From positions 64,471-128,470 of the forward strand of contig NW_006921539.1 of NCBI RefSeq assembly GCF_000340215.1: a DNA stretch of 64,000 nucleotides. The letters are read 5' to 3'. The DNA comes from Pseudocercospora fijiensis CIRAD86. Lineage: Eukaryota; Ascomycota; Dothideomycetes; Mycosphaerellales; Mycosphaerellaceae. This document shows, piece by piece, positions 2,469 through 17,735 of the stretch. The notes beneath the pieces are model-generated. The model did no database searches and was not told the origin of the DNA. It was given only the letters and a program-made list of their open reading frames with translations. Position 1 is the stretch's first letter. Every line of letters begins with the position of its first letter. Position numbers and translations under genes: made by a program.

Positions 2469-2946
2469 GTTTTTTAAAGAACTAAAAGAAGATAGACATT
2501 CCGGTTAATTTGTATTAGTTTAGATTTTTATAAAAAGAAAATAGGGAAAAATAAGGAAGGTTAAAGAGCCTAATACTTATAGTTATAGGCATTATCCCTG
2601 TTTTCTAGACTATATTATATACCTGCCTTCGTAACTCTACCTAATACTCCCTCTAAATATCCTTATACTCTACCTACTAGAAATTTAACTAGGTACCTAG
2701 ACCTATAGCTACCTCTATATCTTTTACTATCTTCTATAGGTTAAAGGACTCCTCTATAGCAGCCTCTACCTCCTTATATAATACGAAGTTACTACCTACC
2801 CTACCCTTAATATCTCCTAAATAACTAAGAGTTCTAAGGAACGAACTAGTATTCGGCCTTAGTATAGCGAGTAACTAGTAGAACGTTATATAGAGCTACC
2901 TTATAGCACTTTTATATACTATACCGATACCGAGGGAGGAGCTATC
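2469..2946 (-). other. RIP-degraded coding-like remnant, unassigned
   Basis: On the minus strand the sequence reads as protein if TAG/TAA are restored (for example FLRTLSYLGDI, AAIEESFNLQKIVKDIEVAI around 2,690-2,850). I do not recognise the family. It was continuous with 15,159 onward before the gypsy element inserted. Confidence 0.35.
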
Positions 2947-2950
2947 CTAG

Positions 2951-3229
2951 TATTAGCTAGTAACCGGCCCTACACCTATAGGCTAGTTTTAAGCCTATAT
3001 AAGAGGCCTCCTTGTATAGAGTAGACAGATTATTAACCTCGTATAGTACATTGTTTATGTTACACTTCTATAATGCCTATATTATAGGGCTCTAGTTATT
3101 AGCCTAAGCGACAGTCTCGTTATCCTATCTTGCTAAACATAGCTACCTATATTGCTATAGGTTATATTACCCTCGGTAGCCTATACTATTGCTACGAGTA
3201 GTAGTAGTAGTATTAGTTTCCGTCCTTTA
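2951..3229 (+). repeat. 5' LTR of the gypsy element
   Basis: It is near-identical along its full length to 14,876-15,154. It starts TATTAGCTAG (TG to TA by RIP) and ends CCTTTA (CA to TA). Confidence 0.9.
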
Positions 3230-3882
3230 TTAGAGCCGAAGGTAGGGCTATCTCTTTATATCTAACAGGTTCGGGTATATTAAAGGTAGTCTCTAGGTAC
3301 GAATAGCTATAACCGAAGCGAGGGTACGATAAGAGCCTACGATACGGACGATACCGAAGTATCTTAAGGGGCCGTTACGATAAGTAGAGAAACCTCTTAA
3401 CGAGGGCATCGCTTTAACCCTAAAAAGCTACAAACCCTTAGGACTATTATAGCTTAGGGCCTAGTCTATAACTATAGCTAGCTTCTAAGGACTCGGCTCT
3501 AGGTCGAAGACCTATTTAGTACCGCTTACTCGAGATAAGCCCCGCCTAAGGAGGAGATAGACTAATTACCTATCGGCCTTGCTTAGTTTACTAAGACTAT
3601 CTATACGATAGCAATTTCTAGATTATAGGTCGGATACCTAGACAGTTCCCCTATTAACCGGATAGACTGTTTCGGGATTCGCTACCTCGTTCGGATAGTA
3701 CTTAGCCTTCTACTAGAAAAAGAAGGTCCCCGCCCCCCCCCCCTGCCTAGCTAAAGGAGATACGAGCTAGTTTCTAGGATCTAGGTATAAATAGAGATTA
3801 TAGTCTCTCCCTTCGAGCGGCTTTTGTCTAATACTAAACTTAGCTCCTAGGGGTATATAGGCGACCCCTAGGAGGCTAAACT
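3230..3882 (+). other. Gypsy leader (5' untranslated) region
   Basis: No ORF is visible. A poly-C run lies near 3,728-3,741. The whole leader recurs, inverted, in the truncated copy at about 16,261-16,958, which shows it belongs to the element. Confidence 0.7.
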
Positions 3883-3909
3883 CTAATGCTACCCTAGGGG
3901 TAATATTAG
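3883..3909. repeat. 27-base palindrome, copy 1 (before gag)
   Basis: The palindrome has CTAAT arms around a TACCCTAGGGGTA-type core and sits between leader and gag. The inverted element copy keeps it at 16,234-16,260. Confidence 0.85.
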
Positions 3910-4029
3910 AAGAAAACAGCCTAGTATACTATTTTCTCGTATAGCAACATCGAAACAAACTAAACCTATAATATATACTAAAAACACTTTCCTATAGTAT
4001 TTTATTTTAACTACTTTATAATAATCGAA

Positions 4030-7000
4030 TAAGCTCTAGCGAAAGCGAGTATTACGAATTAGCGGAATCTTCGGAATCTAATAACCTACTAGACCCTATT
4101 AACGAAGAAATCAGGCGACGACTAGTTATTATAAGCGCTATCGAACTAGGGGCTATCGAGCCTTCTACGCCCGAGGCCCTCTATAATATCGTTATAAAGA
4201 TAATTTAAGGGCAAACTAACTTTCTCCGTTAGAATAGGCGTCGCCCGCTAGAGCTAAGAAGTAGTAGGAACCCTTTATTCGAAGGGTAGAACGCTACGGC
4301 GCACGTAGAACGCTTTAAGGACAACTTAGCCGAGTATAGACTCGAAGAGGAGTCGGACTAGTATAAGGTCCGGTCCCTTACGAGGACTACTATTACTAAG
4401 CTTTACCGAACCCTTAGAACCCTAGTTAGCTACCTAGAAAAGGACGACAAGTCTAATACCGACTAGGAGGTCTTTAAGTAGGCCTTTATAAGGGAGTATC
4501 GGGATCGCGATAGCCGTCGTATTAAAGGCAGTCGTATATAGCTTAAGAACCTCTATATAGAGAGGCGTACCGAAGATAACGACCTAAAGGAGTACGTCCG
4601 CGAGTTTGTTAAGTTAGCGGACGGCATCGACTAGTAGGACCTCGAGAATTCTTAGAGAACGAGGCTGCTCCTTAAAGGGTTGCTATAGTCTACGGCTAAG
4701 CGCGTCTTCCGTCGCTATAAGCTTAGCGAAGCTAATCCCGAGACCTTTAGGAAGTATAAAGAGGTCCTAGAGGCTATTAAGGACGATATTAACAGCTCCG
4801 CTAACGCAAAGAAGTTCATTTACGGCGAGGACTAGAATAACCTAGCCTAGGTAAGGAACGATACCTCGGGAACTAGAGGGCCTAAGTTTCTTCCTAAATC
4901 GCAAAGTAGTCCTAGTGCCGTAACTCCTACTATTACTAAGCATTCTTAGGACATTACGGACTTAGCTAAATCCCTAGCCTAGCTCAACCTTAATACGAAA
5001 GCACTATAGCGAGTTAGGGAGGTTATTAATACTAGTATACTAAAGGATATACTACCGGTCTACTAGATTTCCGATCCTAACTACCCTAAGGCCCCTTTAG
5101 TTAACGTCTACGCTATACGGAAGATCTATTCTAACTTAGATAGCAAGTGCTAGATATACGGCGGTTTTAAATATATTTAATTAGACTGCCCTATCTAGAA
5201 GGAGCTTCTTAAGAGGAAGCTCGTTATATAAGTAAATAGTCGGTTCTACTATACCGATACCGGCGATAAGATTAACTTCGAGTAGGATCGTAGAGCCCCG
5301 AAGCTGCCTTAACTTAGGAGTCTTCTAGAGAAGAAGTATAGTAGCAAGATCGAGTTTAAGGATACTAGGAATAGTACCCTCGCCGCTATTGCTAAACGAG
5401 AAACTTAGAAGGTTAGGGTAAAACAGGTTAAGGAGAGGAGTAGTAACGGCACTACTAAGCCTATTAAAGTTAACTTTGTATCTTAGGACCCGGACGCAGT
5501 TACTAATGTTTACGCGGTTACTAAGAATAGTATAGATATCTACGCTGCTATAAGGTCCTAAACCTAGTCCTAGGGTAAGGGTAAGAGCCCGTAGAACCCT
5601 ACCCGCCCTAGTACGGCAGCCCCTACTAGGATACTTAAGAAGCAGGTAGCTAACAAGGCTAAGAAACAGCGAGAATTAGTCGCTAAGACTAAAACACTCT
5701 AGATAGCTAAAGACCGTGCAACCCGAGCTAGTATAGCTACTCCGGAGGTACTAGAAACTCTAGATATTAATATAGAGGATGCTACTACCGACCTTAGTAG
5801 TACCCTAGGCCTAGCTAACCCGCCGGCCTATAAACGAAAGTTAGCCGACCTAAAGAGCTTTCGCTTTAATAGGTATATAAAGAAGTATAGCGCCGGGCCT
5901 ACTAACTCTTACGATATAAAGGCAAATGCTCTCTTCTAGGCTTTATAGTTCCTAGACCTTAAGTCTAACGTGTCTATAGGGGAGCTTCTAGTATACGGTT
6001 TGCCTACTAACCTGTTCTAGAGCCGGATTCCTAACGATACTACCTTTATAAAAGACCTTACAGCCCTCCGACGTAAATAGGGGCGAGAGGACTATATCGA
6101 CGTCTCTTCCCTATAGTTCCTTCCTAAATTTTTAGGGGCCTAGGAGTTAGTAGAAGGCGAATTAGTAACCTACGAGAGCTAGGAGACTATCGATAATGCT
6201 AATAAAGAGGGGATTAAGGAGATAGGCCGAAGGGATAATAATAATGCCGACCCTACTTCGGTTTTAGTTTCTATTAAGGCTGTCCGATTTACTAGCTAAT
6301 AAATCGGTCGAGTAGGACCTCCTCGACCTAAGGAACTTTACTCTATCCCTAATAATATAGACCTTTCCGTAGTTACCCGTTCCTTTACTATCGTTCCCGC
6401 TATCTATATTTAAGTTACTATCGGAAGCTATAGTTAGTAGTTGCTAGCAATGCTTAATAATAGTTTAGAGTTACTTATTATAAGTAAGCGCTAGGCTAAA
6501 CAGCTCCGACTACTAATAAACAGAGATATTTCCCTTAGTATATAGGGAGTAAATAGGGAGGTTGCGCTAGTAGGTACCTACTATAATATTATAGTAGACG
6601 CTTTCGGCATATACTTTTCCTTTACCTTCTAGACTGCCGCTAACCCGAACACGCTAATTATTCTAGGTCGTCTATAGTCTCGTATAACCCGGGGTATCTA
6701 GCGTAACTGCGACGATAGCTCCTAGGAAGGAACTATCGCTAACTAGAAAGGCAACCGAGTCGTATTTACTAGTTATGTCGGAAACACTAGCTATAAATCC
6801 TACGAGGATATCCTTACTGCTTCTAAACGCTCTTCGGGAAACGCTATAGCGCGGTTATAAGACCGGCAATCTGCGCTATAAGTTAATATAGCTTAAATAG
6901 GTTATATCTAGAGGTACGCCGCTCTATACGTTAAGGTAAATTTCTAGGCTCTATACTAAGGAGGCGAATGCTCGAAGCGATAGCGAGTATAATAACCCGG

Positions 7001-7100
7001 CAACAACAACCTAGTATACGAATCTCGGTAATAATACTATCGTAGGTATCGCCGCCGGAAGCGGATCTACCCGAGCCCGAATCCGAACTAACTAATTAGA
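4030..7100 (+). pseudogene. Gypsy gag and aspartic-protease-like ORF, RIP-broken
   Basis: The first module reads as a charged gag followed by a CCHC zinc knuckle at about 5,148-5,189. There the spacing C-x2-C-x4-H-x4-C survives, although RIP turned the second Cys to Tyr, the His to Tyr and made two stops. After about 6,340 the frame has a retropepsin-like fold (GSYSQQLLAMLNNSLELLIISKR, in two pieces, is the likely active-site strand, with the catalytic D/S/G mutated). Dozens of in-frame TAG/TAA codons rule out function. Exact ends are uncertain because start and stop codons are themselves RIP targets. Confidence 0.75.
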
Positions 7101-7108
7101 GCGCCGAG

Positions 7109-7135
7109 CTAATGCTACCCCGGGGGTATTATTAG
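7109..7135. repeat. 27-base palindrome, copy 2 (between gag-PR and pol)
   Basis: CTAAT arms surround TACCCCGGGGGTA. It has the same length as the other copies. Confidence 0.88.
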
Positions 7136-7139
7136 GAAT

Positions 7140-10100
7140 CTAACGTTTTCGCCGGAATTATAAATTAGGATTACTAGCTATATACCTACCGACTTAAGGA
7201 GACTTCTAATAAAGTTTACGCGCTATTCTATTACGCTAATCTCCGGGCCTAACGTTAAAGAGAGAGGGCTCGGATATTACGAGCGGTTAGTATATATACC
7301 CTATATAAGAGGGTAGCTAATAAGATTAAGCCCGTAAAAGGCAGCGTATATATAACCGATAGGTCTAATCCTAGCGGAAATCCTAACTAGCGATAAAAGT
7401 GCCTTAACCGCGAAGCGATGTTAACACCTAGGGATAGTCTATACGACTAGAGGTATATTACTAAAAAGTTCTCCGCTATTCCTAGGGGATCGAGGCTAAC
7501 GCCGGAGAGACTAGCGAATATTAAACCTAGTATCGAGCTTTCGGATCTTAAACTAAATTTGCTATACGAGCTTCTATATAACCGCGAAGCCGTATTAGTA
7601 TATAACTTTACGTATCTAGGTAGGATTAACCCGGAGGTTGCCCCTCTATAGAGGATCCGAACGATCGAGTATAAGCCTTAGGCTTACCTAGGGTTTAAGC
7701 TAAACCTAAGCCTAAGAGGTATAGTTAAGGATATAATACGGTAGCGTATAAAGGCTAGTACCTTAAAGCCTTCCTATGCCTCGTATTGCAATCTATACTT
7801 CCTAGTTTAGAAGAAGATAGCTCCTAGGGAACTAAAGAAGTACCGTCTAATTAACGCTATACAAAAGTTTAACGTAGTTACGATTAGAGATACTAACCTC
7901 CCTCCGGAGACTAATAGGTTCTTAGAAGCCTTTACTAACTATATAGTAGCCTCGCTAGTTAATGTATTCTCGGGCTACGACTAGATACCTCTCTACCCTA
8001 ATAGCCGGGACCTTACTAGTTTCGAGATATCTCTTAGGCTATATAGACAAACTACCCTTCCCTAAGAGGCGACTAACTTAGTAGCCTAGTTCGTTCGTAT
8101 TATAAACTAAGTCCTCGCGGCCTATATCTCCTATATAGGGATGCCTTTCCTTAACGACATCGGTATTAAGGGCCCTAAAACTAGGTATAACAATAAAGAA
8201 GTAGAGCCTAGCATCCGTAGGTTCTTTCTCGAATATATTTAGAACCTCGATAGTGTCCTCTACGACCTAGAGCGAGCTAACCTAACGGTATATAGGGAGA
8301 AGCTTTAGCTCCTATATAAACGAATAAACATTATCGGGTTTATAACTAATAAGAACGGCCGCTATCCTAATAATACACGGGTTCTAAAGATTGTTTCCTA
8401 GCTAGACCCTACCTATTAGAAAGATGTCCGGATCTAGCTTAGAGTAGTCTCCTACTTCCGTATCTAGGTCGAAAACTTTGCGTTAGTATATAAGCCTCTA
8501 TACGCCTTACTTAAGAAGGATATAGAGTTTGTATAGACCTCCGTTTACTAAGCCGCTAAGAATAAGGTTACTAAGGCGCTTATTAGCGCGCCTACGCTTA
8601 CCTCTATTAACTACTCGGAAGGCGTAGGTCTACTAATTGTTACTATCGACTCGAGCGGGGAAGGCTACGGCGAGATACTAATATAGTATAATCGTAAGGA
8701 GCCCTCCTTACGTTACCCTATCCGGTACGAGTCCGGTTTATAGAAACCTATCGAGGCCCGATACGATACTAGTAAGCGAGAGTGCCTTAGTGTCTATAAG
8801 GCTCTTAAGAAGTTCCGACCTTAGCTCTTTAGAGTGTTCTTTCGCCTAGAAGTCGACGCTTAGACGCTAGTCTATTAACTTAACTATATAGCCTCCGACC
8901 TACCTAACTCTACGATAGCTCGGTAGGTTACCTAGATCTATTTGTTTAATTTCGACGTCTTCTATATCCCTAGTAAGAAGTATACTAGACCGGATAGCCT
9001 TTCTAGAAGGCCTACTATAAAAAAAGACATCGCCGAGATAATAGAAGAAGAGGATATCGACGCGGTTATTAACCGTACCTTCTTTACTACCTTCTATATT
9101 AACGCTATACCGGTAATTACTAGGTCTACTACCGACGACTAACCTAGTAACTAGCCTAACGAAGACCCTACTACTAATAGCGAGGACTAGGACGATACTA
9201 AGGCGGGCGAACTAGGTAGGGATAATATCCTTAATAGGGTCTACTCCGACGACTCCTATAATATCGCCTACTTCCTTACCTATACGAAGAGAGCTCCCGG
9301 TCTATTAAAGAGTTAATACCGTCGTATTATTCGCTATTCCCGGAGGTTCCTTATTAAAGATCGCATCCTTTAGCGATAGGCTATAATTAATATACCGCTC
9401 TAGCGTATTATTAACGATCTAGCAGCCCGATAGGACATCCTTCGCTCCGTTTACGATAAGCTCGGCTACTAGGCGGCGGAGGGCACCTTCGATACCCTTC
9501 GTCGGCGCTACTAGTAGGACGGCGTATAGGCTAATGTCTCCCGCTACTATAAGAGCTATCCTAAGTGCAACTTTAGGAACAGCTACTAGCGTCTAGGAGA
9601 GCTACGTATCCCTACTACCTAGTTAGTTAGGGAGCGGTAGTATAGCGATAGGGTCTATCTTAGCCGCAATAATAGCCTATATATTATTCGAGAGGGTCTT
9701 TCTCGATAGCCGGAGGCCTATTATTTCTATAAGGGTTGCGGTGCTATTAATGCCCGTAATATAGCTACCTTCCTATTTAAGGATCTATTTTACCGCTAGA
9801 GAATACCTTACGAGGTTATCTTAGATAACGCTACGAACAATATAGCTAAGAAGGTTTAAGCGCTACTTATTTCGTATAGGGCGAAGAACGTTCGCATCTC
9901 CCCGTACTATCCCTAGTCGAATGCTATTATTAAGCGCGGCTATCGGTCGTTAATTAATGCCCTATCTAAGATAACTAATAGTAGCGATAGATTAGTTCCT
10001 ATTTCTACCCGCGTCCTAGCCCTTCTCTAAGCGGACCGAACTACTATTATCGACACGACTAGACTTATACTAGCGGAACTTATAATTAGGAGGGACGCCG

Positions 10101-10850
10101 TTCTTCGTATTAAATTGTCCTATCGCACGTACGGCGTTTACGATTAGGGGTCTATTCGTACTAGGGTAGATCTTCTTACCCTACGGGCTAAGGCTCTTAA
10201 GGATATAACTACGACTTCTTAAGAGGGTCTTGCTCGATAACGTCGGCTTCGGGAAGAGGCTAAGCAGTATTTTAATAACTATAATGCTATTAATTAGGAA
10301 CCTCTAAAGGTTAGCGATATAGTCCTTCTATACCGGTCCGAACTAGAGTATAGTTACTCCTATAAGCTAGCCTTTAAGTAGAAGGGTCCTTATAGAGTAA
10401 AGGAGGTCCTTTACTCGGGTTCCGTATACCTTCTTTAGGAGCTAGATAGTGCTACCTTAAAGCACTCTTACCCTCGGGCTAATCTAAAGAAGATCGTTAA
10501 GTTACGTAAACCTGCCCGCTCTCCGCCGACCGAGGAGGAAGTTAGTGCCTTAGCAGACCCTCTACCGTCCTTAGATACCTATCGGGAGGAGGATCCTACC
10601 GCTATTATAGATCCTGTTCTACCTAAGAACTATGCCTATCCCTAGATTCGTCTTAGTAAGCTATTAGGAATAACTTAAGAATAGAGGGAGGGTTATATAC
10701 GGATTAACTATATATAGAGCGTTTCCGATATTAATTCCGATTCTAATAGTAAACGAGACTTCTAGCTATCTAACTCTAACTCCGAAGAACCTAACTAGTC
10801 TAGCGACGAAGACCGCCTAGAATTATAGCTAGATCCCGAGACTAAATAAT
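7140..10850 (+). pseudogene. Gypsy pol (RT, RNase H, integrase), RIP-broken
   Basis: Reverse transcriptase motifs lie at about 7,780-8,200 (FSGYD.IPLY, then FLNDIGIKG at the YxDD position near 8,145-8,165). RNase H is at about 8,640-8,900 (TIDSSGEGYGE). A 66-codon stretch still free of stops covers 8,942-9,142 with the typical end of RNase H (FDVFYIPSKKY, PDSLSRRP). The integrase core is at about 9,530-10,050 (ILDNATNN, ISPYYP.SNA). The C-terminal tail ends near 10,850. The RT-RH-IN order defines Ty3/gypsy. Frequent stops make it non-functional. Confidence 0.88.
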
Positions 10851-11115
10851 TGCTTACTCTTCCTTGCCTCTACCTACCTCTACTACGTTACTTCCTTGCT
10901 CTTATCGATCGTTCTCCGCGCTATTAATATAGTACCGCCCTATACCTTTAGTCCTTACCTATTATCTATTCCTACTAATGTTTATACTCTCGTTTATTGC
11001 TTTTAGTTTATCCTATTATTGTCTTTTGCTTTTGCCTTTACCTTCGATTAATGTTGCTATAACTTTATTCCTTCGCTCTTGTTTCCTTAGATAGAACTAT
11101 ACGAGGCGTATTTTC

Positions 11116-11142
11116 CTAATAATACCCCGGGGGTAGTATTAG
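11116..11142. repeat. 27-base palindrome, copy 3 (after pol)
   Basis: CTAATAATACCCCGGGGGTA plus a GTATTAG arm. It sits about 270 bases after the end of pol. Confidence 0.88.
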
Positions 11143-11406
11143 GAAGATAGCCGAACCTAACCCCTCTACCCTTCTAGGACTACTTCCCTCTAGATTCCTA
11201 GACTCTAGCAACCTTCCTTAAGTAACAACGATAATAAGATACTCTACTAGAGGATGTTCCTGCCCTAATTAGCACTAGCTACGTAGGATACTAAGAAAGG
11301 GAGGATCCCTCTCCCTTCTTAGCTCTTAGATAGATATAGCAACCTAGGCCTATAGCCTCTAAGAATAGGGACCTTAGGCCGCTAAGCTTAGTGTCTAGAA
11401 GAAAGA

Positions 11407-11521
11407 NNNNNNNNNNNNNNNNNNNNNNNNNNNNNNNNNNNNNNNNNNNNNNNNNNNNNNNNNNNNNNNNNNNNNNNNNNNNNNNNNNNNNNNNNNNNNN
11501 NNNNNNNNNNNNNNNNNNNNN
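11407..11521. other. Assembly gap (115 Ns)
   Basis: A run of N lies inside the gypsy element between pol and the third ORF. Its true length is unknown, so the element's size and the spacing of the modules are approximate. Confidence 0.99.
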
Positions 11522-11989
11522 TATTAGTCCCGCTAGCCTTACTACTATAGATTACTACTAGGTACTCGAACTAACTAGTTATATTTCGAGTACGCGGGAA
11601 TCTACGAAAGCTAGAGGTTAATAAAGGCGCGTAGTCGCTACTAGCAATTAGCTAGATCGATTATTAAACTTTAGCCGCCCTACTAATAAAAGAGTCTCGT
11701 ATATAGCTTTACTTTTTAGGGTCTATATATAATCGTTATCCGTTTACTTTACCGGAATATACGGACTACGCTACCTTCGTACCCTATTTAAGGCGAGCCT
11801 TCTAAGCTCTTTCTTCTACTCGAGCACTAACTAACTTACTACCGCCTACCCCCCCCCCCCCTCTTCTATTTAAACCCTTTAATTATTATTAACAAGCTAC
11901 GAACGTTTTTGCAAGCTCGTTACTAACTCCTTTCTGTTCCGGTCGACTAAGATATCTTCCGGCGCCTTAAATCCGCTAGGCGCTAGCAG

Positions 11990-14700
11990 CAGTAGCAACC
12001 TACTAGCCCTAAACCTAGGCGTACTAGTCCCGATCGAAGCCCCCTTCGATAGCGCCTTAGCTACTATAACTAGCCTCGAGCACTACTTCTAGATCGTTAC
12101 CGCCCTTAAAGACCCTTAAGAGAAGATCTAGAACGCTCGTACCCTACTACGCGTTATTAATAGGAATATTAAGAAGGCTACTATCTTAGTTACGTATAGT
12201 ATAAACAACTTACGTTAGTCTATCGGTAAGCGTATCTTTAAGCGCGAGGTCCTTAACGATATAGATATCGAACAAGCCTTTCCTATCGTCTATAGCCTCG
12301 AGATAGCCGGTACCTAGATTCGCTTACGCTTTAAGACCCTCGACTAGGCCTTCGAATATTAGGGAGGACTAAGCAGTCTTCCTAAGAGCCTTATTAACTT
12401 CGCCTACGGTAGATAAGAGCGTACAAAGCAGGTCTCTTCGTTCGTTAATAAGTATAAGGTCCGTTATTAAGGCGCTAAGTACCTTTCCTATACTATAATC
12501 TATCGTATATCTACCGCTAGTAAGAAGGTAGGCAAGTAGTTACTTAACTTGTCCTTTACGCTTAACGACTTTACGATATCCTACTAGAAGCGGTACTACG
12601 ATGCAATTGTCTAGATCGATCTTAATATATAGACAACTAAGGATCTACTAAAAGAGAAGGGCTATCGTATTAATAGTACAGGTTTTATTGTTAAAGGTTA
12701 AGAGGCTCCTATCGTTAATATCCTTAAACGTAAGGCTCTTCGCCTAGAAATAGAGGCCGATACGGCTACTAGTCTCGCGCTCGCTACGGAGATATAGGCT
12801 TAAGACCGTCGCTCGACCCGTAACTATAAGGTCTTTTAGGAAGTTAAGGACGAGCGCGCTAAGGCCGAAGTAGCGCGCAAGAAGGCATTATATACTCGCT
12901 AGGCCCTCTGTAAGGCTACTAAGAAGTATAGCGCCCCTTCTAGGACTAACTATAGTACTAACTATAGTAACTCGGATGTTAATATACTAGATATACTACT
13001 AGAAGATGTCTCCTCCGAAGGCTCCTTTAGCGAGCGTAGAGATAGAGGGCTCTCGCCGATCCTATTAACTAAGAACATCTATAGTTCTTATAAGGGCGAC
13101 TCTATTACGTACCTTATTACTAAGATCGATATAGTTCCTAAAGCCGATATAGGTAAAGCTCCTACCGCCCTATCTATCTATTAACAGCTCGACGACCTTA
13201 GTAAGCTAGGAGAAGAGCCGTTCTCTATATATACTAACTATATTAAGAAGGCCGCTAAGGTCTATAGTCTTTATACTAGTACTAAGGCGAGTGTCCTCGT
13301 CGGTCGCCTATTAAAGATTAGTCGCGAGGTTCCTAATTAAGACGCCTTCGCTGCCCTTAAGGCTAATTAGGCCTATACTAACTAGTTTCCTAGACGCCCT
13401 ATTGCCGCCCTAATATCTCTAGGACTCTACGCGTTTAACCCTACTAGTACTATTACTCGCGCCCTTACGCTAACGGATCGCTAGAGTAAGTTCGTTACCG
13501 GCATCCTTAGCTAAGGCACTTCCTTCGACCGCTTTCGCTAGACTAGCAATACTATCTTCCCTTAAGTCTTTAGCTAGTTATAAGAGCCTCGTAGAGTATA
13601 TCTTCCTTTCCTTATCGACCTAATATAGGAGGAGTTTGAAATGTACCTTTAGTATATACATACGATGCCTAAGTCTAAGTAGGAAGGCCGTAATGCCCTT
13701 TAAACTTATAGTATAAGTAACTAAATCGTCCGCTAGTACCCTACCCTATAGCTCTTAGCTGTCGCCCTTCGACCTAATTACGTATACGAGGTAATCTGGA
13801 CCGGCGTCCATACTAAGTTCTTTAAGGTTAGCGGTACTTATAAAAACTGTCCTTCTAAGGAGTCTGCTCGTCTCGGATAAGATATAGTTAAGCTCGTAGC
13901 TAGCGAGGGTACTAGTTACCTACGTATTAAGGTCTGCCTTATATCTAAGGATAAGACTAGCTGCTCTACTATTATCGAAGGCATATATTAGCCCGAGGTC
14001 TTTACGAACTAGGTTAAGAAGCTTAAGGCTCGTAGCCTAGTCCTACTAAGCAAGATCGGTAAGCTTACTAATAAGCACCTTACCGACGACGACCTCGACT
14101 ATATATTCGATAGTTAGCCTAATAGTAAGAGGCGTAAAGCGGAGTAGATCCTTAACCCTCTAAAGGAGTACGAGGTCTCTATTTAGATACTATACCTACT
14201 ATATAGTAATCTAAAGACTAAGAGCAACCGTATATTAATTAACCCGGGCTACTCTCGCGTTATTAATAGCACTAAGGTTAAGGGCTACGAGAACTTAATA
14301 GTCTCTTAGGTTGCTAAAGCGCACCGCAATCTAACCGCCCTCCTAGCCTCTAACTCCTTTGTACTATTCGCTTTCCCTATAGCTATCTTAGTCGAAGGCC
14401 TCGGCTATATCTCCGACGCCCTAGTTAGTAGGATTCCTTAGTTAAGTTACGTTATTTAGAACGAAGTTAAACAGATCCTCTAGCTTAATAACGAAGGACT
14501 TAAGGAATATCTATACGATTAGGAGAAAGCTACGACGGAAAAGGCTGCTAACCTCCTCGTTAATTAAGCTTTCTACGAGGGATAGTACTTCGGTACTAAT
14601 AGCTTTAACGTATACGGAGGAGATTTCGAGAGCCGACTAGTAGATAAGGTTATTACTAGTAAGGATTACGGCGCGTTAAAGCAATAGTAAGTCTGTATAG
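11990..14700 (+). pseudogene. Third gypsy ORF of unknown function, RIP-broken
   Basis: Downstream of integrase and upstream of the 3' LTR, one + frame reads as a continuous protein of about 900 codons when TAG/TAA are treated as mutated Trp or Gln. It lies in the position env would occupy. It is rich in Lys, Arg and Ser. A basic stretch PNSKRRKAEQ lies near 14,120. One hydrophobic run (SFVLFAFPIAILVEGLGYI, about 14,355-14,412) could be a membrane segment. I see no RT, integrase, protease or zinc-knuckle motif and do not recognise the family. A cytosine run and a TATTTAAA near 11,848-11,877 lie just before it and might be its own promoter (inference). It could equally be a captured host gene. 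Confidence 0.65.
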
Positions 14701-14743
14701 TATTACTTAGGAAGTTGTTTTTATATAATTATAGTATCTAGGA

Positions 14744-14770
14744 TTAATGCTACCCCGGGGATATTATTAC
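14744..14770. repeat. 27-base palindrome, copy 4 (after ORF3)
   Basis: TTAATGC arm, TACCCCGGGGATA core and TATTAC arm. It follows the third ORF and precedes the purine tract and 3' LTR. Confidence 0.85.
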
Positions 14771-14875
14771 GGAGTTCTAAAAATAGCCTTAGCTAAGAAC
14801 GCTAAGGATGCATATATGTTTGTTTTAAGCGCGCAATATAAAGCGTGTCTAGTTAGATACGAAGAAAGGGAGGGA

Positions 14876-15154
14876 TATTAGCTAGTAACCGGCCCTATAC
14901 CTATAGGCTAGTTTTAAGCCTATATAAGAGGCCTCCTTCTATAGAGTAGACAGATTATCAACCTCGTATAGCATATTGTTTATATTACACTTCTATAATG
15001 CCTATATTACAGGGCTCTAGTTATTAGCCTAAGCGACAGTCTCGTTATCCTATCTTGCTAAACATAGCTGCCTATATTACTATAGGTTATGTTACCCTCG
15101 GTAGCCTATACTATTGCTACGAGTAGTAGTAGTAGTGTTAGTTTCCGTCCTTTA
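14876..15154 (+). repeat. 3' LTR of the gypsy element
   Basis: It matches 2,951-3,229 base for base apart from scattered transitions. It is followed by CTAG. Confidence 0.9.
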
Positions 15155-15158
15155 CTAG

Positions 15159-15639
15159 TACTTAATATTAGAGAATAGTTTAGTTAGAAAGTATTAGAAC
15201 TTCTTAAGGAGGGCTTCTAGGGAAATCGAGAAGTTCTACCTAGATCTAGATAATAACATTCTACCGAGCAGTTAGGGAATTAAATAGCGAGCGAAAGGAT
15301 AAAATTTATACCTAATAAGTATAGTTTCTAAACTAAACTATAATAGCTTATATATATATATGCTTTTAATTATTTAGTGCCCTTAGCTAATTGTCTATAG
15401 ATTTAGGGTTATATAAGTACCTTCCTATAACTAAAAAATGCCGGCTACGCTACCGGCTATACTCTCGTATCTTATAAAGGGCTTACTCCGAGTTACGTAG
15501 ACATTCTTATACTTCTTAGAAACCGATAAATTCTATAGTTTGAACTAGCTAATCCTATAGTTGCTTAGTAAACCTACCTAAACTAAACTAGATCTTTAGC
15601 TTAGCAAACTAAACTAAACTAACCCGAACTACTACGGGG
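15159..15639. other. RIP-degraded sequence, continuation of 1-2,946
   Basis: No gene is recognised. It contains GCCGGCTACGCTACCGGCTA near 15,433-15,452, matching the 12-base repeat family found at 1,789 and 2,429. That fits an originally continuous region split by the gypsy insertion. Confidence 0.5.
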
Positions 15640-17238
15640 TCTACTTAAAAAGGCCTACTAAAAGGTCTCCTAGTCGGTATTAGACTTGTTATCCTTTTCT
15701 AGGTAGCTAACTAGTATTCTAAGGGTTCGGTAAAGCTTAGTAATAGTAGTCCTCGTAAGGGACTAGATTTTATACTAGTCGGACTCCTTATTAAGTTCGT
15801 ACTCGATTAGGGAGTCCTTAAAGCGCTCTATATATACTATAGCGTTCTACCCTTCGAATAGGAGGTTTATACCGCTTCCTAGCTCTAGTAGACGGCGCCT
15901 ATTCTAATAGAGAAGCTTAATCTACTTCTCGATTATCTTTATAATAATATTATAGAGAGCCTCTAGCGTAGAGGGCCTAATAGCCTCTCCTAGGTTAACG
16001 GCACTTATAATAACTAGTCGTCGCTTAATTTACTCGTTAATAGAATTAGGGGGATTGTCGGAGTTAGAGGATTCTACTAATTCGTAATACTCGTCTTTAC
16101 TTAAGCTTATTTAGTTATTATAATAAAATAGTTAAAATATTAATAAAATGCTATATAAAAGTGTTTTTAGTATAGTTAGTAGGTTTGTTTCGCTATTACT
16201 ATACGAGAAAGTAGTATAATAGGCTATTCTTCCCTAATAATATCCCTAGGGTAGTATTAGGCTTTAGCCTCCTAGTAGTCGCCTAGATACTACTAGGAGC
16301 TCGATTTAGTAATTTTTAATAAAAAGCCGCTTATAGGGAGGAATACTATAACCTCTATTTACTCCTAGATCCTAGAGACTAGCTCTCTCTTATCTCTTTT
16401 AGCCGAGCGGGGGATAGGGGCCTTCTTTTCTTAGTAGAAGGCTAAGTACTATCTAAGCGAGGCTACGAATCGGGGAGTAGTCTACTTAATTAATAGGGGA
16501 ACTCTCTAGTTATCTAACCTATAGTCTAGAAGTTACTATCGATTAATAGTCTTAGTAGGACCCGGTAAGGTTAATAGGTAATTAATCTATCTCCCTCTTT
16601 AGGCGACTAGTCCGCGTTACTATCCTATAACCGGGCCGGTAGGTAGTAGCTTATCTCGAGTAAGCGGTACTAAATAGGTCTTCGACCTAGAGCCGAGTCC
16701 TTAGAAACTAGCTATAGTCGTAGACTAGGCCCTAAGCTATAATAGTCCTAAGGGTTTATAGCTTTTTAGGGTTAAAGAGATACCCTCGTTAAGAGGTTCT
16801 TTACTTATCGTAATAGCCTATCGAGATACTTCTATATCGTCTATATTATAGGCTCTTATCGTACCCTCGCTTCGGTTATAGCTATTCGTACCCTAAGACT
16901 ACCTTCGATATACCTATACCTATTAGATATAAAGAGATAGCCCTACCTTCGGCTCTAATAAAGGACGGAAACTAATACTACTACTACTAGTAGTAGTAAT
17001 ATTATAGGCAACCGAGGGTAATATAACCTATAACAATATAGGTAGCTATATTTAGTAAGATAGGATAGTAAAGAAGTCGCTTAGGCTAGTAACTAGAGCC
17101 CTATAATATAGGTACTATAGAAGTATAATATAAATAATATACTATACGAGGTTAATAATCTATCTACTATATAGAAGGAGGCCTCTTTTATAGGCTTAAA
17201 CCCTAGCCTATAGGGATAGGGCCGGTTACTAGCTAATA
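15640..17238 (-). mobile_element. Truncated inverted copy of the same gypsy family
   Basis: The reverse complement matches 2,951 to about 4,490: LTR (here 16,959-17,238), leader, palindrome (16,234-16,260) and the first part of gag. The match stops near 15,640, in mid-gag. CTAG follows the LTR at 17,239-17,242, as at the full copy. The rest of the element is missing, so this is a 5'-end fragment. Confidence 0.88.
16234..16260. repeat. 27-base palindrome, copy in the inverted fragment
   Basis: This is the counterpart of copy 1, retained at the leader/gag boundary of the second element copy. Confidence 0.85.
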
Positions 17239-17242
17239 CTAG

Positions 17243-17735
17243 TAGCCTCCTATACTTAATAAATAGAGCGGCGAGAATAAATTTTCTAATAATAGAATAT
17301 AATAAACAAGTTAATTATATAGCTAAGGCTATCGGCTATTTAAAAGGTTCTTAATATATACTACTATATAAGATAGTATCTAGATTCTTATATAGAGATT
17401 ACTTCTATAGCTATAATAGAGTAGGGTCTCGAAGTAGTACCGTAACTATATTTAGCTAGAGAATCGCGCGGGGATAAATACTATAATAGAGCTAAGCCGA
17501 GACTCGAAACATTCGGTTTAGTTCTAGGGATACGCTATAACGAATTCTCTAGTAGTAAGTTAAACGCTAATAGTAATAGTAAAAGTAAAGACGGCGGCGT
17601 CTACGTAGGCCTAGAATCTACTAGGCAGGTATAAATTGTCTTTATATGCTTATATACTAACCCTTAGTATGCGAACGAGGTCTAACCTCTACTAAATATT
17701 ATAGACCGAAACTTTAACAACGCAAGAGCATCCTC
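17243..17735. other. Edge of the RIPped region, no gene seen
   Basis: TpA-rich sequence continues to about 17,700 and then gives way abruptly to normal composition. Nothing codes here on either strand. The OPT gene's stop codon is at 17,736, so the edge lies within a few tens of bases of a live gene. Confidence 0.6.

Follow-up and report, generated by a model that had tools for sequence, protein, structure and literature searches.

Why should a retrotransposon carry the same short palindrome at one junction after another between its genes? The question is raised by a 64,000-nucleotide stretch of the genome of the fungus Pseudocercospora fijiensis CIRAD86 (assembly GCF_000340215.1, contig NW_006921539.1, forward-strand positions 64,471 to 128,470; hereafter the window), in which a Ty3/gypsy element, F1, is built in the order 5' long terminal repeat (LTR), leader, gag-protease region, pol region, extra open reading frame (ORF3) region and 3' LTR. 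Four near-palindromes of 27 bases lie on its forward strand. The first (s1, 3883-3909) stands in the leader between the 5' LTR and gag, beginning about 650 bases past the LTR. The second (s2, 7109-7135) marks the end of the gag-protease region and the start of the pol frame. The third (s3, 11116-11142) lies past pol, by eye about 260 bases beyond the apparent end of that frame, with its asymmetric letters inverted relative to s2. The fourth (s4, 14744-14770) follows ORF3, and its outer pair is non-complementary in all 10 aligned rows. A second, inverted partial copy of F1 in the window carries its own s1 on the reverse strand (16234-16260). All these coordinates had been given exactly by an initial annotation of the stretch. 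Its letters hold at two of the four sites; the core of s1 is TACCCTAGGGGTA, its central CG having changed to TA in the manner of repeat-induced point mutation (RIP), and s4 has the core TACCCCGGGGATA between arms TTAAT and ATTAC. The placement at ORF junctions stands as well, but the number does not: other copies carry a fifth site, s3b, 306-451 bases past s3 (start to start) and before ORF3 (for example at L030:1930), which is not legible in the window.

Chance does not account for this arrangement. The core TACCCCGGGGGTA, with up to two mismatches, gives 10 matches on the two strands of the window, whereas 100 shuffles give a mean of 0.97 and at most 4; the four sites, each read on both strands, make up eight of the 10. 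Across the genome (74 Mb searched), the palindrome pattern occurs at 2195 places with up to three mismatches and its reversed control at none. The observation of the initial annotation is confirmed, in a stronger form than it was given. The flanks of the five F1 sites are unrelated to one another, so that the recurring unit is the 27-mer itself. Its presence, position and copy number are established. As to its role, we tentatively read it as a hairpin-forming cis-signal that is kept in the gaps between genes and is probably read in the RNA of the element. We regard this reading, which draws on comparison of sequences, as possible, and as the likeliest of those weighed below.

Retention in the F1 family

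Retention was assessed in 20 regions of 10 kb around exact matches, which were searched with the flanks of the sites alone. Both flanks were recovered at 64 sites (11 of s1, 18 of s2, 12 of s3, 15 of s3b and 8 of s4) and one flank at three more. The motif was present, with up to six mismatches, at all 67 covered sites, a count biased toward copies in which one site or more is exact, since 20 of the 67 had served to pick the regions. The two flanks stood exactly 27 bases apart at 63 of the 64 sites and 28 bases apart at the remaining one. Other copies thus carry the motif at the same sites, and these are a fixed feature of the ORF junctions.

Conservation of individual sites is a weaker argument. 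Between two subfamilies of F1, A and B, differences other than transitions number 1 in 27 positions at s2 (flanks: 23 in 100 upstream, 2 in 100 downstream), none in 27 at s3 (10 and 6 in 100) and 1 in 27 at s4 (5 and 4 in 100, plus indels); s3b is not legible in this comparison. Among 26 copies, no column of s3 or s3b varies by transversion in at least two copies, the corresponding counts in the flanks being 9/96, 3/100, 1/89 and 3/99. Yet 27-base flank windows free of any A/B difference are common, making up 15-51% according to the stretch, and this tells against the RNA reading; conservation at any single site is therefore weak, and at s3b weakest of all. The stronger argument lies in the five-fold recurrence and in the sharing between families.

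The same alignments bear on the suggestion that the palindromes are scars of modular assembly, or hot spots of recombination between elements. Two mosaic copies, L004 and L012, contain an A-type segment between B-type ones within about 1 kb around s3, and in L057 the left half of s2 is that of an s3-type site of the same subfamily, both of which would fit such exchange. However, one switch falls somewhere from -361 to -183 in alignment columns relative to s3, an interval free of palindromes, and the other between -71 and +304, whose 375 columns are too wide for it to be assigned. The scars proposed by the initial annotation thus find no support here, and we consider this explanation very improbable.

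Sharing between families

Judged by the domains and flanks around it, the palindrome reaches beyond this gypsy family and is common to three LTR families: F1, a Copia-type element (F2) and a chromodomain gypsy, or chromovirus (F3). F2 copies with the motif are found at L008:1501-1527, at L034:3242-3268 and in L054-L056. The motif there amounts to nine codons, free of stops and in frame between the gag and protease regions, and is flanked in one shared frame by matches to Retrotran_gag_2 (1.8e-05, 24.7 bits against a cut-off of 27) and Pol_BBD (26.2 against 27), both slightly under their cut-offs. The 27 letters of L008 and of s2 in the window are identical, and their flanks are unrelated. This F2 stretch is present in at least 40 copies, 40 of 137 candidates having been scored.

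In F3 (L041:2491-2517, L051 and L052) the motif lies just past pol and is a variant of the F1 27-mer. The family has RNase H, integrase, Tf2-1-type SH3 and Chromo domains. In L041 the integrase core match (rve, 0.00036) is under its cut-off and SH3_Tf2-1 is present; in L052 Chromo scores 1.5e-05 (25.2 bits, cut-off 25.1), and the motif starts about 60 bases past this match. Chromodomain chains are matched in the family as well. By these matches the chromodomain is placed downstream of the integrase, as expected of a chromovirus. In L041, the stretch from 2518 to about 8063, where the next F1 element lies, contains no second motif with up to six mismatches; Pfam recognizes pol in it to about 4900.

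Of the first 30 places genome-wide, 29 belong to F1 and one to F2, by flanks and alignment. A broader sample comprised the window and 61 loci, 359,110 letters in all. All 136 places with up to five mismatches lie inside LTR retrotransposons, the test being limited by loci mostly taken around matches and some places being counted twice where loci overlap; the flanks assign 129 of them to F2, F3 or one of the five F1 sites, and inspection by eye places the remaining seven in F1. Within this sample the restriction to three LTR families is established, and the motif is not spread at random through the sequence.

Copia and gypsy elements are so distant that a shared 27-base unit outside conserved domains is not expected. 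The sharing points either to a common signal or to a very small sequence that hitchhikes. The second of these would be a mobile palindrome that travels in LTR elements, perhaps acquired when the reverse transcriptase switches templates, and that persists only at junctions and linkers able to tolerate it. Several observations suit it: the unit is discrete and sharply bordered in seven unrelated contexts, exists in both orientations, is confined to retroelements in the sample just described, appears letter for letter in L008 and s2, and reads through the F2 polyprotein in frame without a stop. A palindrome with other arm letters is moreover found within s3 flanks, at L059:62-88. Mobility should also leave sites without the insert, and such sites were looked for at s3b of F1 and in F3 (both strands summed, three mismatches allowed). 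The s3b flank with a half site occurs at 382 places genome-wide (control 1) and the joined s3b flanks at none; the F3 flank with a half site occurs at about 966 places (control 0) and the joined F3 flanks at a single place with three mismatches (control 0), an ambiguous candidate for an empty site. By eye, the borders of the palindrome show no target duplication, and the location of all five F1 sites at junctions suits a function equally well. We hold the mobile palindrome to be doubtful, though it ranks, together with a DNA-binding site discussed below, close behind an RNA-level signal. Were the unit mobile, it would rank, to our knowledge, with the smallest such units described from a nuclear genome.

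Letters, pairing and strand

The consensus is AAT--YACCCC / GGGGTR--ATT, with the core YACCCC-N-GGGGTR in most rows. In 28 rows chosen for variety (27 of them distinct), A3, A4, T5, A9, C12, G15-G17, T19 and A23-T25 are invariant. At positions 6-7 one arm reads GC (or AC) in most rows and the other AA, GT/AT or AG, the exceptions being L057, with AA in both arms, and L059, with GT in both. Nowhere in the genome does a half site with C or T at position 6 occur when the rest of the pattern is exact, and GC or AC stands in both arms at two places. The L059 palindrome, an s3 site by its flanks, is perfect, with arm letters otherwise unlike those of s3; L060, also an s3 site, has AC/GT, the GC type, in both arms.

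Such letters could suit a protein that reads DNA. On this account the 27-mer would be a dyad of two 13-base half sites, bound by a host or element protein in transcription, silencing or chromatin and indifferent to orientation. Its dyad symmetry, the near-constancy of the half site AAT--YACCCC around variable positions 6-7, the restriction on position 6, the inversion of s3 and the different central base of the chromovirus site all agree with this. Less easily accommodated are the complementary double change in the arms described below (T:A to G:C), which alters both half sites together, and the lack of any place outside LTR elements in the window and the 61 loci. We also know of no factor that binds the 27-mer, no search for one having been made. 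A DNA-binding site is in our judgment a somewhat doubtful explanation, the nearest to that of an RNA signal.

Much of the variation in the letters may come from RIP. Changes inside the motif comprise 119 transitions and 13 transversions (2646 cells in 98 rows). Where RIP has struck less, s2, s3b, s4 and F2 have G-T at pairs 6:22 and 8:20, which RIP makes A-T, so that the palindrome looks more perfect than it originally was. A RIP artefact as such is rejected; RIP can explain most letter differences and sharpens the pairing, but leaves unexplained why the motif recurs.

The pairing itself was followed in the second base pair. At 35 places the pattern is exact except that both letters of pair 2:26 differ from T:A, and at all 35 the new pair is complementary (34 G:C and one C:G). 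Such double changes can reflect selection on pairing, or the templating of one arm by the other. Pairing cells make up 95.6% in the 27 distinct rows, against 93.5% in shuffles, none of 500 shuffles reaching the observed value. On the sense strand, 6:22 and 8:20 are G-T, a wobble pair in RNA, in 12 and 11 of 17 rows at s2, 7 and 7 of 24 at s3b, 6 and 4 of 10 at s4, and 4 and 3 of 5 in F2. The predicted hairpins of s1-s3 and F2, folded as single strands, have energies of -9.2 to -9.5 kcal/mol. The GC arm comes first, with a central G where RIP has spared the center, on the sense strand of s1, s2, s3b, s4 and F2; the arms of s3 are inverted, and F3 has the GC arm first but a central C. This strand pattern leans toward sense RNA, the seven contexts, several of them probably related, being too few to settle the matter.

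These data also contain much that weighs against a hairpin read in RNA. Pair 2:26 has changed on one side only at 44 places (21 to C, 23 to G), compared with the 35 changed on both. The 34 G:C changes probably go back to few events inherited in one subfamily, that of L005 and its kin, because all but one have s3-type letters; the left arm of s2 in the L005 lineage reads CGAAT too. The shuffle control on the 27 chosen rows is weak, the covariation score being reached in 7 of 500 shuffles and the number of two-sided pairs in 140 of 500. On the sense strand of the inverted s3, 9 of 24 rows have A-C at 6:22 and 2 of 24 have C-A at 8:20; s1 has A-C in 2 of 15 rows, and the outer pair of s4 is consistently broken. 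Fold z-scores are modest for s1-s3 and F2 (-1.3 to -2.5), and s4 of the window folds no better than its shuffles (-1.0 kcal/mol, z +0.9). Finally, RIP turns G-T and C-A mismatches alike into pairs, so that part of the perfect pairing in the window is of mutational making.

A reading of the arm as a CCAAT box was considered, since 21 of the 44 one-sided changes give C, and was set aside because T is nearly fixed at that column in the aligned rows. A known structured RNA family was rejected, Rfam 15 giving no match with E of 1 or less over window positions 2900-17300.

On balance, we favor a nucleic-acid cis-signal common to several LTR retrotransposon families of P. fijiensis, which would be kept where it is tolerated: in the leader, ORF junctions and 3' regions of F1, just past pol in F3 and in the gag/protease linker of F2. 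This RNA-level reading is supported by the excess of places over the reversed control, the retention at all covered F1 sites with their nearly constant flank spacing, the unrelatedness of the flanks, the low A/B difference, the presence of the same 27-mer in F2 and of a variant in F3, the complementary double changes, the wobble pairs of less RIPed copies and the lack of an empty s3b site. In genomic RNA the 27-mer may form a hairpin or a self-complementary segment that a trans-acting factor or another RNA would recognize; dimerization or packaging of the RNA is a candidate step, and a shared signal might let unrelated elements use the same one. It is tempting, although rather unlikely to be correct, to merge this with mobility and to picture the palindrome as a parasite of LTR elements, or as a passport that they share: it would move between gypsy, chromovirus and Copia during reverse transcription in shared particles, lodge only where 27 bases are tolerated and perhaps give its hosts a common packaging or dimerization step.

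Organization of F1 and a possible punctuation of its reading frames

The LTRs of F1 are direct repeats of 283 bases with 96% identity (2951-3233 and 14876-15158, forward strand, as are the three regions that follow). The gag-protease region (about 4000 to 7108) is broken by RIP-type stops and gave no significant Pfam match. Near its 3' end the protease codon start is probably at position mod 3 = 0, on the strength of bin 6600-6899, all 12 of whose transversion cells fall at one codon position, and of the frame read by eye, bins 6000-6599 having too few cells. The pol region (7136 to about 10850), also broken, has its codon start clearly at position mod 3 = 2, by the periodicity of transversions between subfamilies in bins 7200-10799. 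Pfam finds RT_RNaseH (5.4e-12) and RT_RNaseH_2 (3.7e-12) there, and downstream Integrase_H2C2, a zinc domain (7.9e-05, 23.1 bits, under the cut-off of 25.5). The reverse transcriptase matches PDB chain 4ol8_A (2e-14), and a Ty3 Gag-Pol chain is among the best PDB matches. These matches assign the reverse transcriptase and RNase H to the Ty3 type, upstream of the integrase. The piece 7136-8335 gave nothing in Pfam, the other pieces of pol giving RNase H and integrase, and the integrase core (rve) has no Pfam match in the broken frame. The ORF3 region (about 11760 to 14690) is broken and of no recognized family. Two of its frames have few stops, and its transversion periodicity is weak and inconsistent. 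It has no Pfam match and no homologue at E ≤ 0.001, a miss that is weak evidence given a RIP-changed query with X at its stops.

The frames on either side of s2 invite the view that the palindromes punctuate gene expression, as splice acceptors (CTAAT as branch point, ATTAG as acceptor), as stop-restart signals of the form TAATG, or as terminators between ORFs. CTAAT and TTAG do resemble the branch-point and acceptor sequences of fungi. In the window, s2 contains TAATG, at which the probable protease frame stops and the pol frame has an ATG. Splicing is nevertheless unlikely: s4 lacks both CTAAT and the final AG in all 10 rows, and s2 lacks the AG in 5 of 17, because subfamily B ends this site in TTAC. 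Stop-restart translation is not conserved, the ATG being missing in L057 and L058, where RIP could have removed it, and kept in other copies with CGAAT arms; in the window, TAG is the seventh codon past that ATG. In F2, moreover, the motif is read through. We therefore judge punctuation of this kind improbable. The initial annotation had offered hairpins that separate translation units, or sites of RNA processing or termination; of this, the placement at junctions and a foldable strand are borne out, and no test identified such a role.

Some further features of the window may be recorded. Runs of 11 and 13 C residues lie at 3733-3743, in the leader upstream of s1, and at 11849-11861, near the start of the ORF3 region. 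A 12-base minisatellite, TAGCCGGTAGCG, occupies 1771-1863 and has an inverted counterpart 0.6 kb away at 2419-2468. The segment 26749-27345 is repeated at 95% beside another F1 copy (L027:1-597) and represents a separate repeat family.

Comparison with known systems

If the palindrome is indeed a common RNA signal, cross-packaging and exchange between superfamilies become directly testable within one genome. Either way, it provides a simple sequence tag for three repeated families, with the several hundred s3b and F3 places counted above.

In a limited search of the open-licence PMC literature we recognized no description of such a 27-base unit, and the main texts of two papers (PMC3562529, PMC13041039) on the Gypsy and Copia families of Mycosphaerella (Pseudocercospora) fijiensis do not contain the string "palindrom". 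A looser 23-base core pattern gave no match in viral contigs and two stretches in a prokaryote collection of 257 billion bases. Among small high-copy palindromes, those of Rickettsia can sit in frame within genes. Prokaryotic repetitive extragenic palindromes (REPs) measure 20-40 bp (PMC3733652). Unlike either, the unit described here is eukaryotic, was found only in LTR elements and occupies fixed places inherited with each family.

Closer parallels come from the retrotransposons themselves. The Conserved Hairpin Site (CHS) of GalEa Copia elements lies directly past the 5' LTR, in the position of the primer binding site; it mostly reads CTGATCAGT or CTAATTAGT, and its partner stands at a distance of 12-41 bases (PMC5445492). 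Like the CHS of fungal GalEa elements, our unit is a short conserved palindrome or hairpin in fungal LTR elements that is common to families within a species. F1 has neither adjacency to the 5' LTR nor the 9-base sequence of the CTGATCAGT/CTAATTAGT type; unlike the CHS it repeats one 27-base unit with an ACCCC core five times, first at some distance from the LTR. In the genomic RNA of yeast Ty3, a 6-base dimerization palindrome, CUGCAG, lies at 391-396, near the 5' end (PMC11381356). That site is a self-complementary cis-element of a Ty3/gypsy RNA, as the one in F1 may be; the latter has 27 bases, is repeated along the element and is shared with a Copia-type element. As far as these sources go, the GalEa hairpin site and the Ty3 palindrome are the nearest descriptions that we found, and the palindrome of F1 differs from them in place, sequence and number.

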